This document shows positions 2,629 through 63,137 of a DNA stretch of 64,000 nt, piece after piece. The number at the start of each line of letters is the position of its first letter. Position 1 is the first letter of the stretch. The notes under the pieces were generated by a model. That model worked only from the letters and a program-made list of their open reading frames with translations, was not told where the DNA came from and did not search any database. Source of the DNA: Paracyclopina nana (Eukaryota > Arthropoda > Copepoda > Cyclopoida > Cyclopettidae); assembly GCA_019096065.1 (NCBI GenBank), contig JAGUCH010000005.1, forward strand, positions 5,890,001 to 5,954,000, written 5' to 3'. The position numbers and the translations under genes are program-made.

Positions 2629-4444
2629 TCAGACACTGCAGCCATTCAAGGCTGGCGTGGAGTAGAGGCCGTCGACGGCCTTCACGGCCTCGTTGGAGGC
2701 CGGAGGCTGCGAGCTGCTCCACACTTGGTCGACAAAGCTCTGATTTAAATTTTTCTTGTCTTTGGTATGACTGACTTCGTCCCTGAGCACCTGCTCAAAC
2801 TCCCAAAGCTGGCCCATGAAGTTGAGGTTGGGCGAGATGATGGATCGTTTCCTCTTGACGAACTTGTAGGCGTCCGCCATGTTGGCCATGTTGTGCTTCA
2901 TGAGGTAAGCCACGGCGATGGTGGGGCTGCGGCTGATGCCGGCCTGGCAGTGCACCAGCACCCCCGTCCCGGCCTCCTTGGCCTCGTCGATGAACTCGAA
3001 GGCCTCCTCGAAGAACTGGCGCAAATTCTGCACCCCGTTGTCCGCGGCCTCGAGGTGCTTGTAGCGGAAATTGGTGGGGAGCGCGGCGGAGGCCGGCTTG
3101 GCGGTCACGTTGAGGATGTAGCGGATGTTCAGCCTCTGGAGGACGGAGAGGTCGGACGCGTCGCGCATGTTGCCCAGGAACAGGTGGGGCAGCACCTGGG
3201 TCGCGGGGTGGTTCTCGATGTCTTTGCTGTCGCTCATCTCCGACGGCGACGGCAACTCGGGCAGCAGCTTCGAGGCCGCCATCATCTGCTTCTGGCTGCT
3301 CATCAGGTGATCCTCGCAGAGGCCACGGTGCGCCACCTTTAAAATCAATTCGAGGCTCTTAGTATACAAAGCACATATAGTTTATATAGAGTAATTAGGC
3401 GTCCAAGGCTCTCCGCCTCGGGTAATTCGAGCGAGCTTGTAAAATTGCTTATTTTCGAATTTTCTAAATGAAAACGGGTTAAGCTACCTGAAAGTCAGTC
3501 AAGCCGCCGAGGAGCATGATGGGCTCGCGGTTGTCCTCGACGAGGGCGTTCATCACGAGGAACAGGGTGTGGCTGCAGGGCAGGTTTTCGAGGCTGTCCG
3601 AGCTCTCGTCGTAGACGTAGACCTCGCGCCACGACCGCTTCTTCAGCAGCTCCTTGCCCTCCTTGGTGGTGGCCAAATCCGCGAGCGTGGCCTTGCCCTG
3701 CTGCAGCCTTTTCCGGTTGAAGCGGTCGCAGCAGTTGACGTTGATGGCGCCGCGGATGTGGTTCACGTTGTAGGCGATGAACGGCCGGCAGTCGATGAGT
3801 ATAAAGTTCTTTTTGGACGCGAGAGCGGCGGAGGCCGCCATGGCCTCCATCCTCGCCGCGAGGCTGTTGGCCTCGATGGTCCTCGCGCTCTTCAGCATGA
3901 TGGTGCGCTGCAGCGTGGAGCTCTCGCTGCACGGCGACGTGGGCAGGGACACGGACCCCGCCCCCGCGGGCTGGGGCGGGGCCAGGTTCACGTGGTTGCC
4001 ACCGCCGCCGCTGGTAGCCATCAGCTTGCTCCGCTTGGACGGGTGCAGGCTGGGCGTGACGGAGGGCGGGCTCTCGAGGGTGGGCGTGCAGGGCACGCCC
4101 ATCACCCTCCCGGCCACGCCCCCCAGAGGCTCCGAGAACGAGCGCTGGAAGCTGAGCTTGAGCGCCTCTCTGCGCTGCTGCGCGTTCAACGCGACGCTCG
4201 CGTTCGACGCCGTGGAGATCATGATGCTGCCAACGGCCTCCAATGGCCTCTTTTTCAACTTCTTGAGGAGCTGAGGCTGCTGGTGCTGAGGGTGCTGAGG
4301 CTGCTGAGGAGCTGCTGCTGCGAGTGGGCACTGCTGCAGCACTTTGACGGACATTAAAAAATGCGGCTGATGTTGACTAGTTGCAAAAATGTTGAGATCA
4401 CGCGGACTGAGCCATGATATGCGATGCGTCGCGTCCGATGTCAA
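2629..4444 (-). CDS. DUSP10: MAP kinase phosphatase, DUSP10/MKP5 (puckered) type
   Basis: Exons 4444-3488 and 3336-2629, phase 0, give 554 residues; donor CAG|GTAGCT, acceptor TTTTAAAG. An internal ATG at 4354 (residue 31) is an alternative start. Residues 1-210 are low-complexity (Q, P, A and S rich). Residues 211-319 form a rhodanese/CDC25-like MAPK-binding domain with FILIDCRPF and the basic docking motif NRKRLQQGK. Residues 366-510 form the dual-specificity phosphatase domain with the P-loop HCQAGISR (Cys449, Arg455) and the DUSP10-typical AYKFVKRKR and [10 protein letters not shown]. In this family the enzyme dephosphorylates JNK and p38; the Drosophila counterpart puckered is a JNK feedback inhibitor. 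The domain order, linker (GGLTDFQ then LCEDHL) and active-site region fit DUSP10 better than other DUSPs. The first exon is CpG-rich. Exon joins are inferred but the phases agree. Confidence 0.93.
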
Positions 4445-9160: not shown

Positions 9161-9991
9161 TCACTCGGTTTTGTGGGGCAACACTGGATGGGCCACGGGG
9201 ATATGCTGAGGAATGTGGCAAGAGCAAGCTGAGGGCAGCTTGTAGGTATCAATGAAAAATCCACGGTATGGATCGCAAGGGTCAAAAGAGAGCATTCGGT
9301 GGTAGGTGTACTTTTGCGTGCACTTGGATCCGTAGCAGGGAGCCAAAAGTCTGCAGGCCGAGTCCGGAGTGAGGCAAGCTTCCAATCGAGTCGTTTGAGT
9401 GTAGTTGTAATGTCCATAGGAGTAGTCATGTGGAATATGCTGGAGAATCACCCTCCAGAAGCCTTCAACGTTGACAGCCCTGCGGATCTTGACGTAATCC
9501 ACCTGGCTGGGGCAGAGGTAGCCCTCAGGGCCAATCCAGTGGCTGGCATCGTAGGGGCTTGGCCCCTTGGAGGCTCCAGTGTAGTAATTGTAGTCGAAGG
9601 CAAATTCCTGGTAGCCAGCTATGTAATCGACGAGGTCGTCAGCTGACTGGTCAGCAATGTCCGAATACTTCTTCAAGAAAATGGGATCTTGGCTGATCTT
9701 CTCGGCAATCTCGAACTCCGGGTAATCCGGATCTTCCAGGCAGAAGGGGACATCGGTGTGGAGTGCGCACACTGGCGGAGCCTTGGGATCACAGTAGCCT
9801 CCATATGGAGGATGATGAGGTGGAGGATGGTGTGGAGGCCCATGAGGATGAGAGGCCATTGCTAATGCCAATGGAATTAGGGCAGTAACCTGAACATAGT
9901 AAATAAGTTATTTTCCAAAAAATCTCTCAATTTCGAATATAGGAAGATTTTAAAGGTAAATTCTGATGAAACTTACAATTTTGGCTGCCAT
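9161..9991 (-). CDS. Spätzle-like secreted cystine-knot ligand
   Basis: A 15-nt first coding exon (9991-9977) encoding MAAKI splices in phase 0 to exon 9889-9161, giving 247 residues. The join completes a signal peptide (MAAKIVTALIPLALAMA). A His/Pro-rich stretch follows. The proregion has CLEDPDYPEFEI, typical of Spätzle paralogs. The C-terminal domain carries eight cysteines (131, 177, 184, 190, 195, 210, 227, 229) in Spätzle order, with hallmarks GFWRVI, TQTTRLEACL, KYTYHRMLSFD and FIDTYKLPSACSCH. Family members are Toll-receptor ligands activated by proteolysis. No obvious furin RxxR site precedes the knot. It looks nearer the Spz3/4/6-type paralogs than Spz1, but I cannot fix the paralog. 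Confidence 0.92.
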
Positions 9992-23110: not shown

Positions 23111-26100
23111 ATGAACAGGTCATCATTTTTGGTGTTGCTCTCCTTGGCCTCGTGTGCTCAAGCTCTGCCCCAGAGCTTACACATAGGTAAGAAAAGGAAA
23201 TACAGCATTTAAATATTGTTATGCTAAGCAGTAAGGAAATGAAATTTCCGGACTGCTCATCATCTCAAGTCCCCCTTTCATCCTTTCTTTTGGAGCGTCA
23301 CGACAACAATCCTTTTTTCTGATTACACTTCTCTCCAGAGTTGTGACATCGCGTATACACATGATGTATATAAGCGCTGCGTATAAACTTGACGTTTTTC
23401 CCCGTGGTAGCCGAGCTCATTAGCTACATTGGCTGAGATGATCGATGTCAGACATTTCAGTTCTCCCTTGGGACTTGAAATCATTAACGCTTCATTGTTT
23501 CCTCTACGAAAAGAAATGGGGCGTTCATGTATATATATTGAAAATTGAATCTGAATCGAATATAGCATTGGCATGAAATCAGCACTGAGCCTTGCTAAGC
23601 TTGAAAAATATGAGAGAACGAGCTAGGTTCATTTTCTGCATTTTCATATAGATGACGAGCACATGGAGTAATAATATGCCATTTTTTGCACCTTCTCTCC
23701 TACGCAAACAGTTAATGGTCAGTCAGAAGTTGAGCAAAAAGCTGAGGATCAGCAGCAGCAGCTGCCATTTGTTGTGGTAGCAGCCAACAACGACAACGAC
23801 GAGACTGCTGAGAAATCTCTCGACGAGGGAAATGATGAAGGTACAGTGATTCCCACCAAAGGACAGAGCCTCTTCAAGCTTTTGTCGAGGGAAGACCAGG
23901 CACGAGAGGACATTCAAGTGATTAGAGGAGAAGATAACGAGGGAGAAGAAGACCACTCACTCGTACCAACTAATGAATCAGGTCAACAGACATTATTCAA
24001 ACAGTTGGCAAAGCGGAGGAAGCAGGCTGAGGACGCTGAGGATTCGGAGGCTGTCGTGGTGGAGGCCAATGAGGACCAGCCTCTACTAAAGGACATTCCC
24101 AGGGACAATTCAGGCAGAAATGAGGCTGGATTCAGGCTGCCCACAGCTCAAGGAGGAAATCTTCCTTCAGCCTCAGGAAGAGCTCAACCAGGATCACCAC
24201 AGCTTCCTTCCAGTGGCGATGGTGATGATGATGTGGTCGTGGTTGAGGCTGGAGATGATGAGCCTTCCAACTGGTCAGACATTCCCAGGGACAATTCAGG
24301 CTTTAAGCAGGCTGGCTTCAGGCTGCCTTTGCCAGATGAGACCGAAGAGGACGAGTACAGCGACGTGGAGGTCACCGAGGCTGAGCGCAACAGTGAGAGG
24401 CTGCCCAAGAAAATAGCTGACGAGGCCTCAGGACTGAGCAGCATCGACCCAGACCAGCCAGACTGCAATGCGCCCAAAGATGCAGGAAACTGCCAGAATA
24501 GCGTCAACTACTTCTATTACGAGCCTAAGGATAACGCTTGTCACGCTTTCGAATACACCGGCTGCGGAGGCAACACAAACAGGCAAGTCATTTATGCACC
24601 GAAATAGCCCCCAAAAAAAGGAGTAATAGGAGAAAGCAGCTCATTTGGCATATGCTATAAGCAAGGAAATTATTTTCTTCTTAGCCCGCATGATAAATGA
24701 ATTTCTCATGTTGCTGTAGCGTTGCATCATGGTATATGGTGGCTTTCTCCCCTTATATGTATAGTATGTACATTGTTTCTGCTGCCATCAGGATTGTAGA
24801 ATCACAAACTTTCGCACCACCACCATAGTACTGTTACGTAGGTTCTGTGGAAGAAGAGAAAGCTGGAAAGAAGAAAATCACATGCTGCTCCCTCCCACTA
24901 CGTAGAGTTATTGAATAAGAAGGGATCCTTGTGGATTTGAGCAAAGCTCCTGCATGGCCAACAACCTTCTTTTCTTCTGTATATATCATGGCAGCAGCCA
25001 GAGGAAAAAGTTTCAGATTTTCCTTGCTGCTGCCCACAAATCACGGTGATTACATGGAAGTTTTATGAGCGAGAAGCCTTTACATGGTTCCACCATTAAC
25101 TGTGGAATAGTATACCATTTAGTATGGTATATGGTATATTTTTAGAAAGCAAAATAGCATCTCATGAGCTGCTGTGCTTTTTCACTTAGCAGCCTCCTTC
25201 TTCTTCTGCTTCTTGTTGCTATTATAGACGAAAATGGTTTTGTGTGGCAACAGGACGTTTTTATGGCCTTTGCAGCCATAAAGACTGAAGGTATCATTCA
25301 AGTGGAGGATCACCGTTGAAGCAACATTGGCTGGCAATACATTTGCCATCTCTGCTACTAGCTGCTGTGGCAGTAATAGTGGGCGCTCGTGCGAGAAAAT
25401 GCAATTGCTTTCTTTATTCATCAAGGTTCACGAGATACGGCTACGCTTCCACATATATCTGTATAAAATAAGCGTGTGTTTCCTGAGCACGAAATTAATG
25501 CTTTCTCCTAGCTGCAATAATGCTAGTATATGCAGAGAAGTAGCACTTATTGCTGCAGAAAGAGGGAATTCAACAAGTTTATCATCCATCTCTGGTCTTG
25601 ACATGTTTCAAGTCACTACCAACCATCAGAAAGTAGTTCACGGGGCAGAAAGAGAAGGGAAAGCATATATGTGGTATCATAAATTTTCTTCTGCTTTACC
25701 TCCAGGTTCCTGGCTGAATTTGACTGTATCAAAAAGTGCAAAGACCCCAGCATTCCTGACCCTGTGAAGCCCAAGAAGATTGTTGAGAACAATACGACTA
25801 CTACCACAACTACTTCCACAACAACTCCTCAAAGTAGTACAAATACCTCCACAGTTTGCCCGACCTCAGCCCCCATTTGCGAGGATGGATGCAGCCTCAA
25901 GAAGGAGGACAATAATGAGGGTGCCTGCTTGCTATGTGACTGTGATAAAAAAGGTACAAAGGCTGATGAGAAGGAAAGTTGTTGTTGGTGAAGGGGAGCT
26001 ATGTACTGTGTATGCTACGACAAGAGGCGGAGGAGAGGACCACAGGCTTAATTTAAGCTGATTTCCTCTCCCGGCTGCTTCAACCCAACAAGCGTCTCAA

Positions 26101-60663: not shown

Positions 60664-62647
60664 TCAAGGTTTTTCCAGCTTATTATCAATGAATTTCTCA
60701 GTGAATTTGAATTGGAGATTGATGTTCAAATATGGGTACTTTTCTTCTCCATATATTTTTTCTGCCCTCTCGCAGCCTGTATCAATTATTTCAAGCTGAA
60801 AATAAAGTGACGGAGTTTTACAGGGAACAGAGAAAAATTATTATTTTTCTTACTCTGTTGCTCAAGATGGCCGACGTATCAGTGCAACTTCCAGACTCAG
60901 CATTCCAGCCTTCAATGTCAACACTTGTCTTGTCATGAGTCCAGCTTCCCATTGTCACTGTGCAGTTTTGGTCACCCCACGGCCAATTTTCATAGTTGAC
61001 ATTGCAGTGGGTCTAAATTTACAGATGCTACACATTCAAGTTTCAAATTTAATTAGCTTATTTTTTTCACCTTCATGATTGAGGGTGGGACAAACAGGAT
61101 GGATCCAGATGAGTTAATGACAACATTGACATTTTCTTCCCAAGAGGCAGAGATCCTTTGTGAGGGCTGTGCAGCATTGAACAAAGTGATATCAGGAATC
61201 CAGACCTGAAATCAGAGGACAGTTGATGATTTCTTAGTTGACCAAATATATTCATCGCCAACTAGCTCTTTAACATATTCTCAAGCTACGCTACACAAAG
61301 CTAACAAGTCGCTCTTCAGGCTCGTATCTTAGTAATAACTGAGCGGATTTGCACCAAATTCGGTAGACATCATGAGGATAACATTGGAAATGTCCATCAC
61401 AGATTTGGCTGAGATCCGAAGCCAGTTTATCTAGGTTGATTCTGTCTTGGCTTAAAGATAGCTGCCTAAAAAGAAGACCTTTAAAATGGCCTCTGGATAA
61501 CTGCCTCATATCTCTCACAAATTTGTCACGGACTATTGCCTTGTTCATGTATTAAGAATGCCTTAAGGTATGGAAAAAATTGTCTTTAGGAAAAGTGAAT
61601 CTGTTGCTGACTGCAACTCTACGAGTTCAGCTTGGGGTCAAGCAGCGTTTTTTATGGCAATTTTGGCTATTTTGTCTCATGGTTTTCAGCATATTTCAAA
61701 ACAAACTATCTTTCATCAGGTTTCTGTGATTAAATATGAAATTGAACTATTGATTTTGCTCAGATGGACTAAAATGTGGATCACTTAATATCCCAAATTA
61801 GATTTGTTTACTTCCAAGTTGGCTTAAAGTCGATCTGATTTTATTAGTATCAGCTGGCGCTTGTCGTAAGACAATTTTTCTCCTTGCCTTGAGGTGTTTT
61901 ACGTGCATTTTCCTAAGGAGTTTGGGGCGTACATGAACAGGACATACATGTATCTGTAGCCTAAATATGAAACTTGCCAAATACAGAATGAATCGGCTTA
62001 GTATTTTCTAGTTTGCAAGTCTCATATTAAGGGTGCAGCAATGATTCGTTTCAAAATTGGTTAACATGCGAGGCTGCTATTCAGAGGCCAGCCATTTTTG
62101 CCGTACTTTCTTGGTAGGCACCTAGCTTTTAGCAAGGCAGAATTAACCTCAATAAATCCGCATTAGATTTCAACGAAATATGTCATGGACATTTGATATG
62201 TTACCCTAGCTCATGACATCTACCGGATTACTTTTCTTCGCTTAACTTTAAAAATTGAAAATTTTCTAAACTAGAAATTCTTACAAACTTGGAATTGACG
62301 AGAAGCTTGGACGATCCTCCAAAGTCATCAGGATTCCAGGTGAGTCTGGAGTCATTCCAGGTAATCACAGACCACCCATTGACAGTCAAAATCTGCAAAT
62401 AATTATACCTTAGTTTAAAAAAATTAATGTAGCTGAAAGCAATTAATATGACATTTACCTCATCATGAAAGTCTAGCTTCAGGTCATTCACGTAAAGATT
62501 GACTTTAGTTGTAACCCGGTGATTGGGATTGACTTCTTTATCGTACCCATCAAAGAGGGCTTTTCTTAGGGCTGATTGAGGGCTGACTCCTTCATGGGCG
62601 ATGGCAAAGGCCAAAAGAATGGCCAAGTTGACGATGATAAGCTTCAT
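60664..62647 (-). CDS. Secreted acetylcholine-binding-protein-like Cys-loop ligand-binding domain
   Basis: Exons 62647-62459, 62392-62285, 61205-61071, 61012-60854 and 60795-60664, all phase 0, give 240 residues. The signal peptide is MKLIIVNLAILLAFAIA. Extracellular-domain landmarks of nicotinic receptors follow: loop D region NGWSVITWND and LTWNPDDFGG, loop A WIPDITLFNAA (Phe108 where receptors have Tyr), Cys loop Cys147-Cys161 with 13 residues between, loop B MGSW (Trp168), and strand LEIIDTG. The loop C region GCERAEKIYGEEKYPYL has a single Cys205, not the vicinal pair. The frame stops (EKP then TGA) right after the last beta strand, with no membrane spans, so the product should be a soluble pentamer-type binding protein like AChBP. 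Length also matches AChBPs. The TATA box and poly(A) signal are well placed. I found no further exons, but transcript data would settle that. Confidence 0.88.
61206..62284. other. Intron 2 of the AChBP-like gene
   Basis: A 1.1-kb intron. An open frame at 61548-61291 (minus, 85 codons) has no recognisable domain. A short inverted pair (TTGTTCATGTA at 61543 and TACATGAACA at 61930) may mark an eroded MITE. Confidence 0.45.
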
Positions 62648-62920: not shown

Positions 62921-63137
62921 CTTCGTAGGATGGCTTCTTGTGCCAAAAGACCGATTCCGTAGAAAAAAACTAAAAATTATTTGGGAAGCACCTGGAATTT
63001 GCAAATATCGCTCGATATTTTGATCATAATATCAAGCGATATTATGCTGATATTTGCAAATATCAGGTACTTCCCAAATAATTTTTAGTTTTTTTCTACG
63101 GAATCGGTCTTTTGGCACAAAAAGCCATCCTACGAAG
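62921..63137. repeat. 217-bp near-perfect palindrome (foldback)
   Basis: Arms 62921-63009 and 63049-63137 are 89 nt each and differ at four positions (about 95 percent identity), around a 39-nt loop rich in ATATC/GATAT. There is no coding capacity. It lies 220 bp upstream of the AChBP-like TATA box. It could be a young foldback transposon copy or a hairpin-RNA locus. Confidence 0.9.

Follow-up and report, generated by a model that had tools for sequence, protein, structure and literature searches.

An AChBP-like gene without the vicinal cysteines of loop C, and its paralogues, in the copepod Paracyclopina nana

Acetylcholine-binding proteins (AChBPs) are the standard structural model of the binding sites of nicotinic receptors, targets of neonicotinoids and many toxins. 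The aromatic box of these sites is composed of the loop A Tyr, the loop B Trp, two Tyr residues of loop C, and the loop D Trp. The earlier sources of AChBPs were molluscs and one annelid, and a putative AChBP of the spider Cupiennius salei (CsAChBP), which has 246 residues with a start and a stop, was described in 2015; the same source gives 10-16 nicotinic acetylcholine receptor (nAChR) subunits for insects (PMC4569296). The disulfide of loop C has been called strictly conserved across the superfamily (PMC3423370), and the vicinal Cys residues of this loop are described as defining alpha subunits (PMC4569296, PMC2064938). In the snail Biomphalaria, BgAChBP1 carries Phe at a conserved pocket Tyr (Y92F), and the protection of the animal from phytotoxins has been proposed as a role of snail AChBP (PMC3423370). 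We read Y92 of BgAChBP1 as the loop A Tyr.

In the present study, we analyzed a window of 64 kb from P. nana (contig C5, 5890001-5954000, within a 92-Mb assembly of 10 contigs), in which one member of an AChBP-like gene family is located. The copy in the window is referred to as gene A, and the other members as paralogues B, C, and D. Gene A is probably functional and would encode a soluble, secreted protein that consists of a single nicotinic-type ligand-binding domain (LBD); the genome has at least three intact AChBP-like copies, A included. The product of A would most likely be either a subunit of the non-alpha type or the binder of a ligand other than acetylcholine (ACh). Similar to CsAChBP, A is an arthropod Cys-loop protein without transmembrane (TM) spans; compared by description, the spider protein has a Cys-loop of 16 residues and all agonist-binding residues of the alpha type, whereas A has 13 residues and no Cys pair (PMC4569296). 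A putative AChBP in an arthropod, the novelty of which was implied in the sequence-only reading, has been in print since 2015 with the spider protein (PMC4569296), and the Tyr-to-Phe exchange is also already known, with Phe replacing a conserved pocket Tyr in BgAChBP1 (PMC3423370) as it does in A. Gene A adds to this one published arthropod case that we found, and the set of A, B, and D suggests that arthropods may have small families of genes for soluble receptor domains.

The gastropod AChBPs (Lymnaea, 1uv6; Aplysia, 2byn; Biomphalaria, BgAChBP1/2) have a soluble LBD and an aromatic pocket in common with A, whereas those of Lymnaea and Aplysia possess a Cys-loop of 12 residues and the vicinal Cys pair (CC) in loop C. 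Regarding nAChRs, the Cys-loop of human alpha-7 also has 13 residues and non-alpha subunits are described as being without CC (PMC2064938), while A differs from these receptors in the absence of a membrane domain, a stop where TM1 would begin, and other intron positions. A TM-less copy without CC beside intact sisters with CC was not found in the open-licence literature searched, as far as the accessible parts of these texts extend. A set in which the pocket is classical in two paralogues, while a close sister has lost its loop A Tyr and loop C Cys, represents a natural experiment on what these parts do, and the absence of the vicinal Cys from one of two sister copies is an interesting fact.

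Gene A occupies 62647-60664 of the minus strand, and its five exons, all in phase 0, join to 723 nt that encode 240 residues and end in TGA (Table 1). All four introns are bounded by GT/AG. The five in-phase exons and 240 residues of the sequence-only reading were reproduced. The gene is real, and, as far as the sequence can say, its stop is the true end. Its second intron measures 1079 nt vs 55 nt in B. Imperfect inverted arms in this intron (61375-61449 and 62133-62207, 75%) flank the dispersed repeat of approximately 410 bp listed in Table 1. Another repeat, a foldback element with 89-nt arms that are 96% complementary (62921-63137), lies approximately 220 bp upstream of the TATA box of A and is MITE-like; among the best 40 of 547 candidates, one half of it (~121 nt) was matched at 38 other places (89-91%), and nearly the whole element was matched once (81%).

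Table 1. Positions of gene A, its flanking signals, and the paralogues (window coordinates unless a contig is given).
Feature	Position	Strand	Content	Support
Exon 1 of A	62459..62647	-	signal-peptide-like start (hydrophobic residues 3-21), N-terminal helix, first strands	in-phase ORF, donor GTAAAT; 189 nt also in B and D
Exon 2 of A	62285..62392	-	loop D Trp (ITW) and the strands after it	GT/AG; 108 nt in A, B, C, and D
Exon 3 of A	61071..61205	-	loop A (WIPDITLFN; Phe108, Tyr in B and D), loop E	GT/AG; 135 nt in A, B, C, and D
Exon 4 of A	60854..61012	-	Cys-loop (Cys147, 13 residues, Cys161), loop B (GSWTHD), loop F	GT/AG; 159 nt, vs 156 in B and 159 in D
Exon 5 of A	60664..60795	-	loop C without vicinal Cys (IYGEEKYP), last strand, TGA at 60666-60664	AG border; loop C 3 residues shorter than in B and D
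TATA box TATATAAA, 5' of the start codon	62694..62701	-		motif match; GCCTATATAA common to A and B within the upstream alignment (z 8.3)
Poly(A) signal AATAAA	60652..60657	-		begins 7 nt past the stop of A; same place in B
Dispersed repeat, ~410 bp, in intron 2 of A	61537..61945			40 further matches at 89-92% identity, the best 40 of 580 candidates
Paralogue B	C3:3790032-3791001	-	exons of 189, 108, 135, 156, and 141 nt	introns of 55-68 nt
Paralogue D	C2:4959999-4960971	-	exons of 189, 108, 135, 159, and 162 nt	introns of 49-64 nt
Paralogue C	C2:12544014 onward		broken; frame lost, loop C region missing, TATA gone	~8 nt missing past the Cys-loop (by eye)

The predicted protein contains Neur_chan_LBD (E = 8.4e-40, residues 25-228, profile positions 2-212 of 216), the only Pfam family detected in it at E values up to 0.001, and the solved chains closest to it by sequence are nAChR subunits, with a beta-3 chain at the top (4.2e-28). 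The protein starts with a hydrophobic segment at residues 3-21 (Kyte-Doolittle 2.16 from residue 3), and no TM-like stretch was present in the remainder of A, where no 19-residue window starting after residue 25 exceeded a hydropathy of 1.32. A whole-genome search for Neur_chan_memb yielded 103 matches, none of which fell within the 64-kb window. On the strand of C5 that carries gene A, the closest match is at 5803140, approximately 148 kb from the gene, and a hydropathy scan of the open frames in the ~3.5-4 kb that follow A, B, and D revealed no receptor-like span. Of the marks of an AChBP, A has a complete nicotinic-type LBD without a membrane domain, a secretion signal as judged from the hydrophobic N-terminus, and, at the sequence level, the Cys-loop pair Cys147 and Cys161, which is predicted to form a disulfide across 13 residues. 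The four membrane spans that follow the LBD in a nicotinic receptor are absent, and a stop and AATAAA come right past the last strand. The signal peptide, the Cys-loop with its spacing of 13, the stop ahead of any membrane span, and the view of A as a complete secreted AChBP-like protein, as previously put forward, appear to hold on these data, and splicing into membrane-span exons, named earlier as a refuting observation, was not seen, with no membrane-span match within the window.

A comparison of the pocket of A with those of B, D, and Lymnaea AChBP showed that A has kept the Trp of loops B and D as well as the two Tyr of loop C. Four of the five residues of the aromatic box are therefore retained in A, with Phe108 replacing the loop A Tyr that is present in B and D; the aromatics of loops A, B, and D and the Phe of loop A had been correctly recognized from the DNA. 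This was not the case for loop C, which had been described as having one Cys instead of two: both vicinal Cys are absent from the tip of this loop in A and the loop is 3 residues shorter (IYGEEKYP vs TYDCCPDEVYP in B and EYECCPDESYP in D), whereas the pair is present in B, D, and Lymnaea. The residue taken earlier for the loop C Cys, Cys205, is matched in the alignment by Cys204 of B, a protein that has CC as well, and by a Tyr in D. Outside the Cys-loop, the Cys residues are 187 and 205 in A, 59, 186, and 204 plus the CC pair in B, and 59 and 187 plus the CC pair in D, from which we infer that a disulfide has been rewired from 59-187, which D would allow, to 187-205, which A would allow. Since the vicinal Cys, a defining feature, were looked for and are absent, A is filed as an AChBP-like variant and not as a strict AChBP.

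Gene A is one of four copies, of which A, B, and D are intact and C is broken. No fifth copy with an identity higher than 50% was present among the best-scored candidates (47 matches with A as the query and 45 with D). The identity of A is 63.2% to B (151/239) and 47.5% to D (114/240). Similar to A, B and D consist of five exons of matching lengths that encode one LBD without a TM-like stretch; unlike A, which is without all three, they have the loop A Tyr, the loop C CC, and Cys59. With the first two of these features they resemble alpha subunits, and at the level of sequence both carry the AChBP features that were tested. The TATA box and AATAAA are in the same places in A and B; D has a TATA box, and AATAAA was not seen in the 60 nt past its stop. 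Downstream of D (L023 5784 onward, reverse-complement coordinates), an open frame of 419 residues with several hydrophobic spans looks by eye like a GPCR and not like a Cys-loop receptor.

The order of descent among these copies depends on the sites considered. Fourfold sites are identical at 30/53 positions between A and B, 10/38 between A and D, and 14/48 between B and D, and in the 110 nt preceding the start codon, A can be aligned with B at z 8.3, with none of 500 simple shuffles being as good, whereas this stretch does not align for A-D (404/500 as good) or B-D (125/500). Protein trees pair B with D and place A outside (SH-aLRT 85/bootstrap 95 in one tree, bootstrap 99/SH-aLRT 90 in the other). 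With D as the outgroup, 44 amino acid changes were assigned to A, 14 to B, and 30 were ambiguous (binomial p 1e-4), and the protein of A has changed approximately three times as fast as that of B. Because A evolves fast, the silent sites and promoter, which pair A with B, were weighed above the protein trees; in our reading, A is a rapidly evolving sister of B, and the B-D grouping is explained by rate only. On this view, A would have lost Cys59, the Tyr of loop A, and CC as derived changes, and, since A has changed so much faster than B, its missing Cys look like a derived loss in a gene that is still open. The pairing of B with D in the protein trees would let the CC state of the family be read the opposite way.

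The protein of A would be secreted, to judge from its hydrophobic start, and would probably assemble as a pentamer in the manner of AChBP, with a small ligand held between its subunits. Its affinity for ACh is probably weakened or altered because the loop C disulfide is lost, while the Trp of loops B and D and the loop C Tyr stay. Most likely, A would either combine with the alpha-type B in mixed pentamers as a subunit of the non-alpha type, as analogy with receptors suggests, or act as a soluble binder of another ligand, and we regard these two readings as close in weight. Tentatively, A may form the complementary, non-alpha-type subunit of soluble pentamers in which B (or D) would provide the principal face, as suggested by analogy. 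The vicinal Cys that define alpha subunits (PMC4569296, PMC2064938) are missing from A, A retains the complementary-face Trp of loop D, and B, the copy nearest to A at silent sites, is of the alpha type and has a promoter like that of A; however, both loop C Tyr and the loop B Trp are also kept, so that A could form a principal face of its own. A broader proposal, in which duplication gave soluble AChBP subunits of the alpha and non-alpha types, with A being the latter and the alpha/beta split of nicotinic receptors repeated outside the membrane, is possible, although we consider it to be rather doubtful.

The other reading, which we likewise treat as a possibility of limited strength, is that of a homopentamer with a changed ligand, in which A may serve as a scavenger that binds a toxin, a different amine, or an alkaloid from plants or prey, and would buffer that ligand in the body fluid. 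The four retained residues of the aromatic box with Phe for the loop A Tyr are consistent with this, a similar exchange being described for BgAChBP1, and the proposed protection from phytotoxins in snails points in the same direction (PMC3423370), as do 16 A-derived changes in the 52 sites of loops D, E, and F. Over all binding loops, however, the enrichment was not significant: A-derived changes affected 21/98 binding-loop sites vs 21/123 others (p 0.49), in a test that left out the signal peptide and gapped columns, including the gaps of loop C, and used loop limits set by the analyst. Pocket-focused change in A is statistically unsupported on this count, and, with no clustering of these changes in the binding loops, we claim no selection on the pocket.

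Much less probable than a functional gene is one on its way to becoming a pseudogene, as C already is. The faster change of the protein of A relative to B (44 vs 14), its lost Cys, the repeat inserted in intron 2, and the presence of a broken fourth copy are in keeping with decay, and dN/dS does not by itself exclude it. Between A and B, dN/dS is 0.19 (dS 1.19, 239 codons; silent sites are saturated in A-D and B-D), and B-C, although C is broken, gives 0.28 over exons 1-3 (142 codons), so that a value below 1 is weak proof of function for A. A rough branch estimate, in which the A-B dN was split by the polarized counts with equal dS assumed, is 0.29 for A and 0.09 for B. On the other side, A contains zero stops over 240 codons, and its splice sites, TATA box, and poly(A) signal are intact at a dS of 1.19 from B, while neutral simulations of B with substitutions only almost never kept the frame at such distances (15, 0, and 1 of 2000 runs stop-free at 0.2, 0.4, and 0.6 changes/site). 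Pseudogene status, which is accepted for C, is held unlikely for A on its open frame, splice sites, and these simulations, and we take A to be constrained, but relaxed or adapting.

The relationship of the functional gene favored here to the receptors of the same genome was assessed in a tree of 29 rows, which comprised 22 own-genome LBDs (of 23 built), A, B, D, Lymnaea and Aplysia AChBP, human alpha-7, and Torpedo alpha. In this tree, the three copies A, B, and D are united in a single clade (bootstrap 100, SH-aLRT 99), which joins the own-genome receptor-like C5:5590, C9:357, and C9:5011 (bootstrap 81, SH-aLRT 94; weaker in the other tree). The free tree sets this clade apart from molluscan AChBP, and a tree holding both together was not rejected (p-AU 0.237); the long branches of the LBD tree make such deep placement unsafe. 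Placement as a truncated pseudogene of a neighboring receptor, the second refuting observation named earlier, was not obtained, since the tree groups A with two intact TM-less paralogues instead. The loop A exons of five receptor-like genes (C9:357, C9:5011, C5:5590, C5:3364, and C1:5528) seem to end right past the loop A Tyr/Phe-Asn, where an in-frame stop comes at once, whereas A, B, and D have no intron at that point and instead have one earlier, before the WIPD motif. The differing intron positions argue against an origin of A by the recent truncation of a receptor of the usual type, and a truncated receptor was rejected on the whole-genome TM search, the kept stop and poly(A) signal, and the intron positions. 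Membrane exons that were missed, with A being a full receptor or having an alternative short transcript, are extremely improbable. Six-frame searches can miss degenerate TM exons, as at C9:357, C9:5011, and C5:5590, but no receptor-like TM segment was present in the ~3.5-4 kb scanned downstream of A, B, and D, A and B share the stop and AATAAA, and the A/B/D family has no intron where the five receptor-like genes read seem to be split.

Across the genome, matches to the LBD and/or membrane domain formed 79 clusters (48 with both, 29 with the LBD only, and 2 with the TM domain only), which include anion channels, are not gene models, and give lower bounds for receptor loci. The 29 LBD-only clusters overstate the number of TM-less genes, as three of those read (C9:357103, C9:5011010, and C5:5590770) are receptor-like and have TM-like segments, visible by eye, that the Pfam membrane model missed; the LBD-only cluster at C1:5528 may be part of the one at C1:5539, which has both LBD and TM matches. 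A single-exon LBD at C2:8632000-8633002 (L024 4001-5003) has a signal-like N-terminus and a loop C without CC, also runs through the loop A position without an intron, and is followed by no TM-like receptor segment up to L024 7000; it is possibly a second, unrelated TM-less LBD gene.

Other frames of the window encode unrelated domains. On the minus strand, dual-specificity phosphatase (1.2e-38) and rhodanese (9.6e-9) domains are located in neighboring frames at 2632-4444, a pair that we take to resemble a MAP kinase phosphatase, and a frame at 9164-9907 contains a Spaetzle domain (1.7e-23), the strongest sign of an arthropod in the sequence itself. Searches for Blo-t-5 and PBP_GOBP yielded no matches, which is no evidence of their absence, and COX1 likewise gave none. 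On the plus strand, a Kunitz domain (5.4e-11) ends an open frame of 310 residues at 23675-24604.
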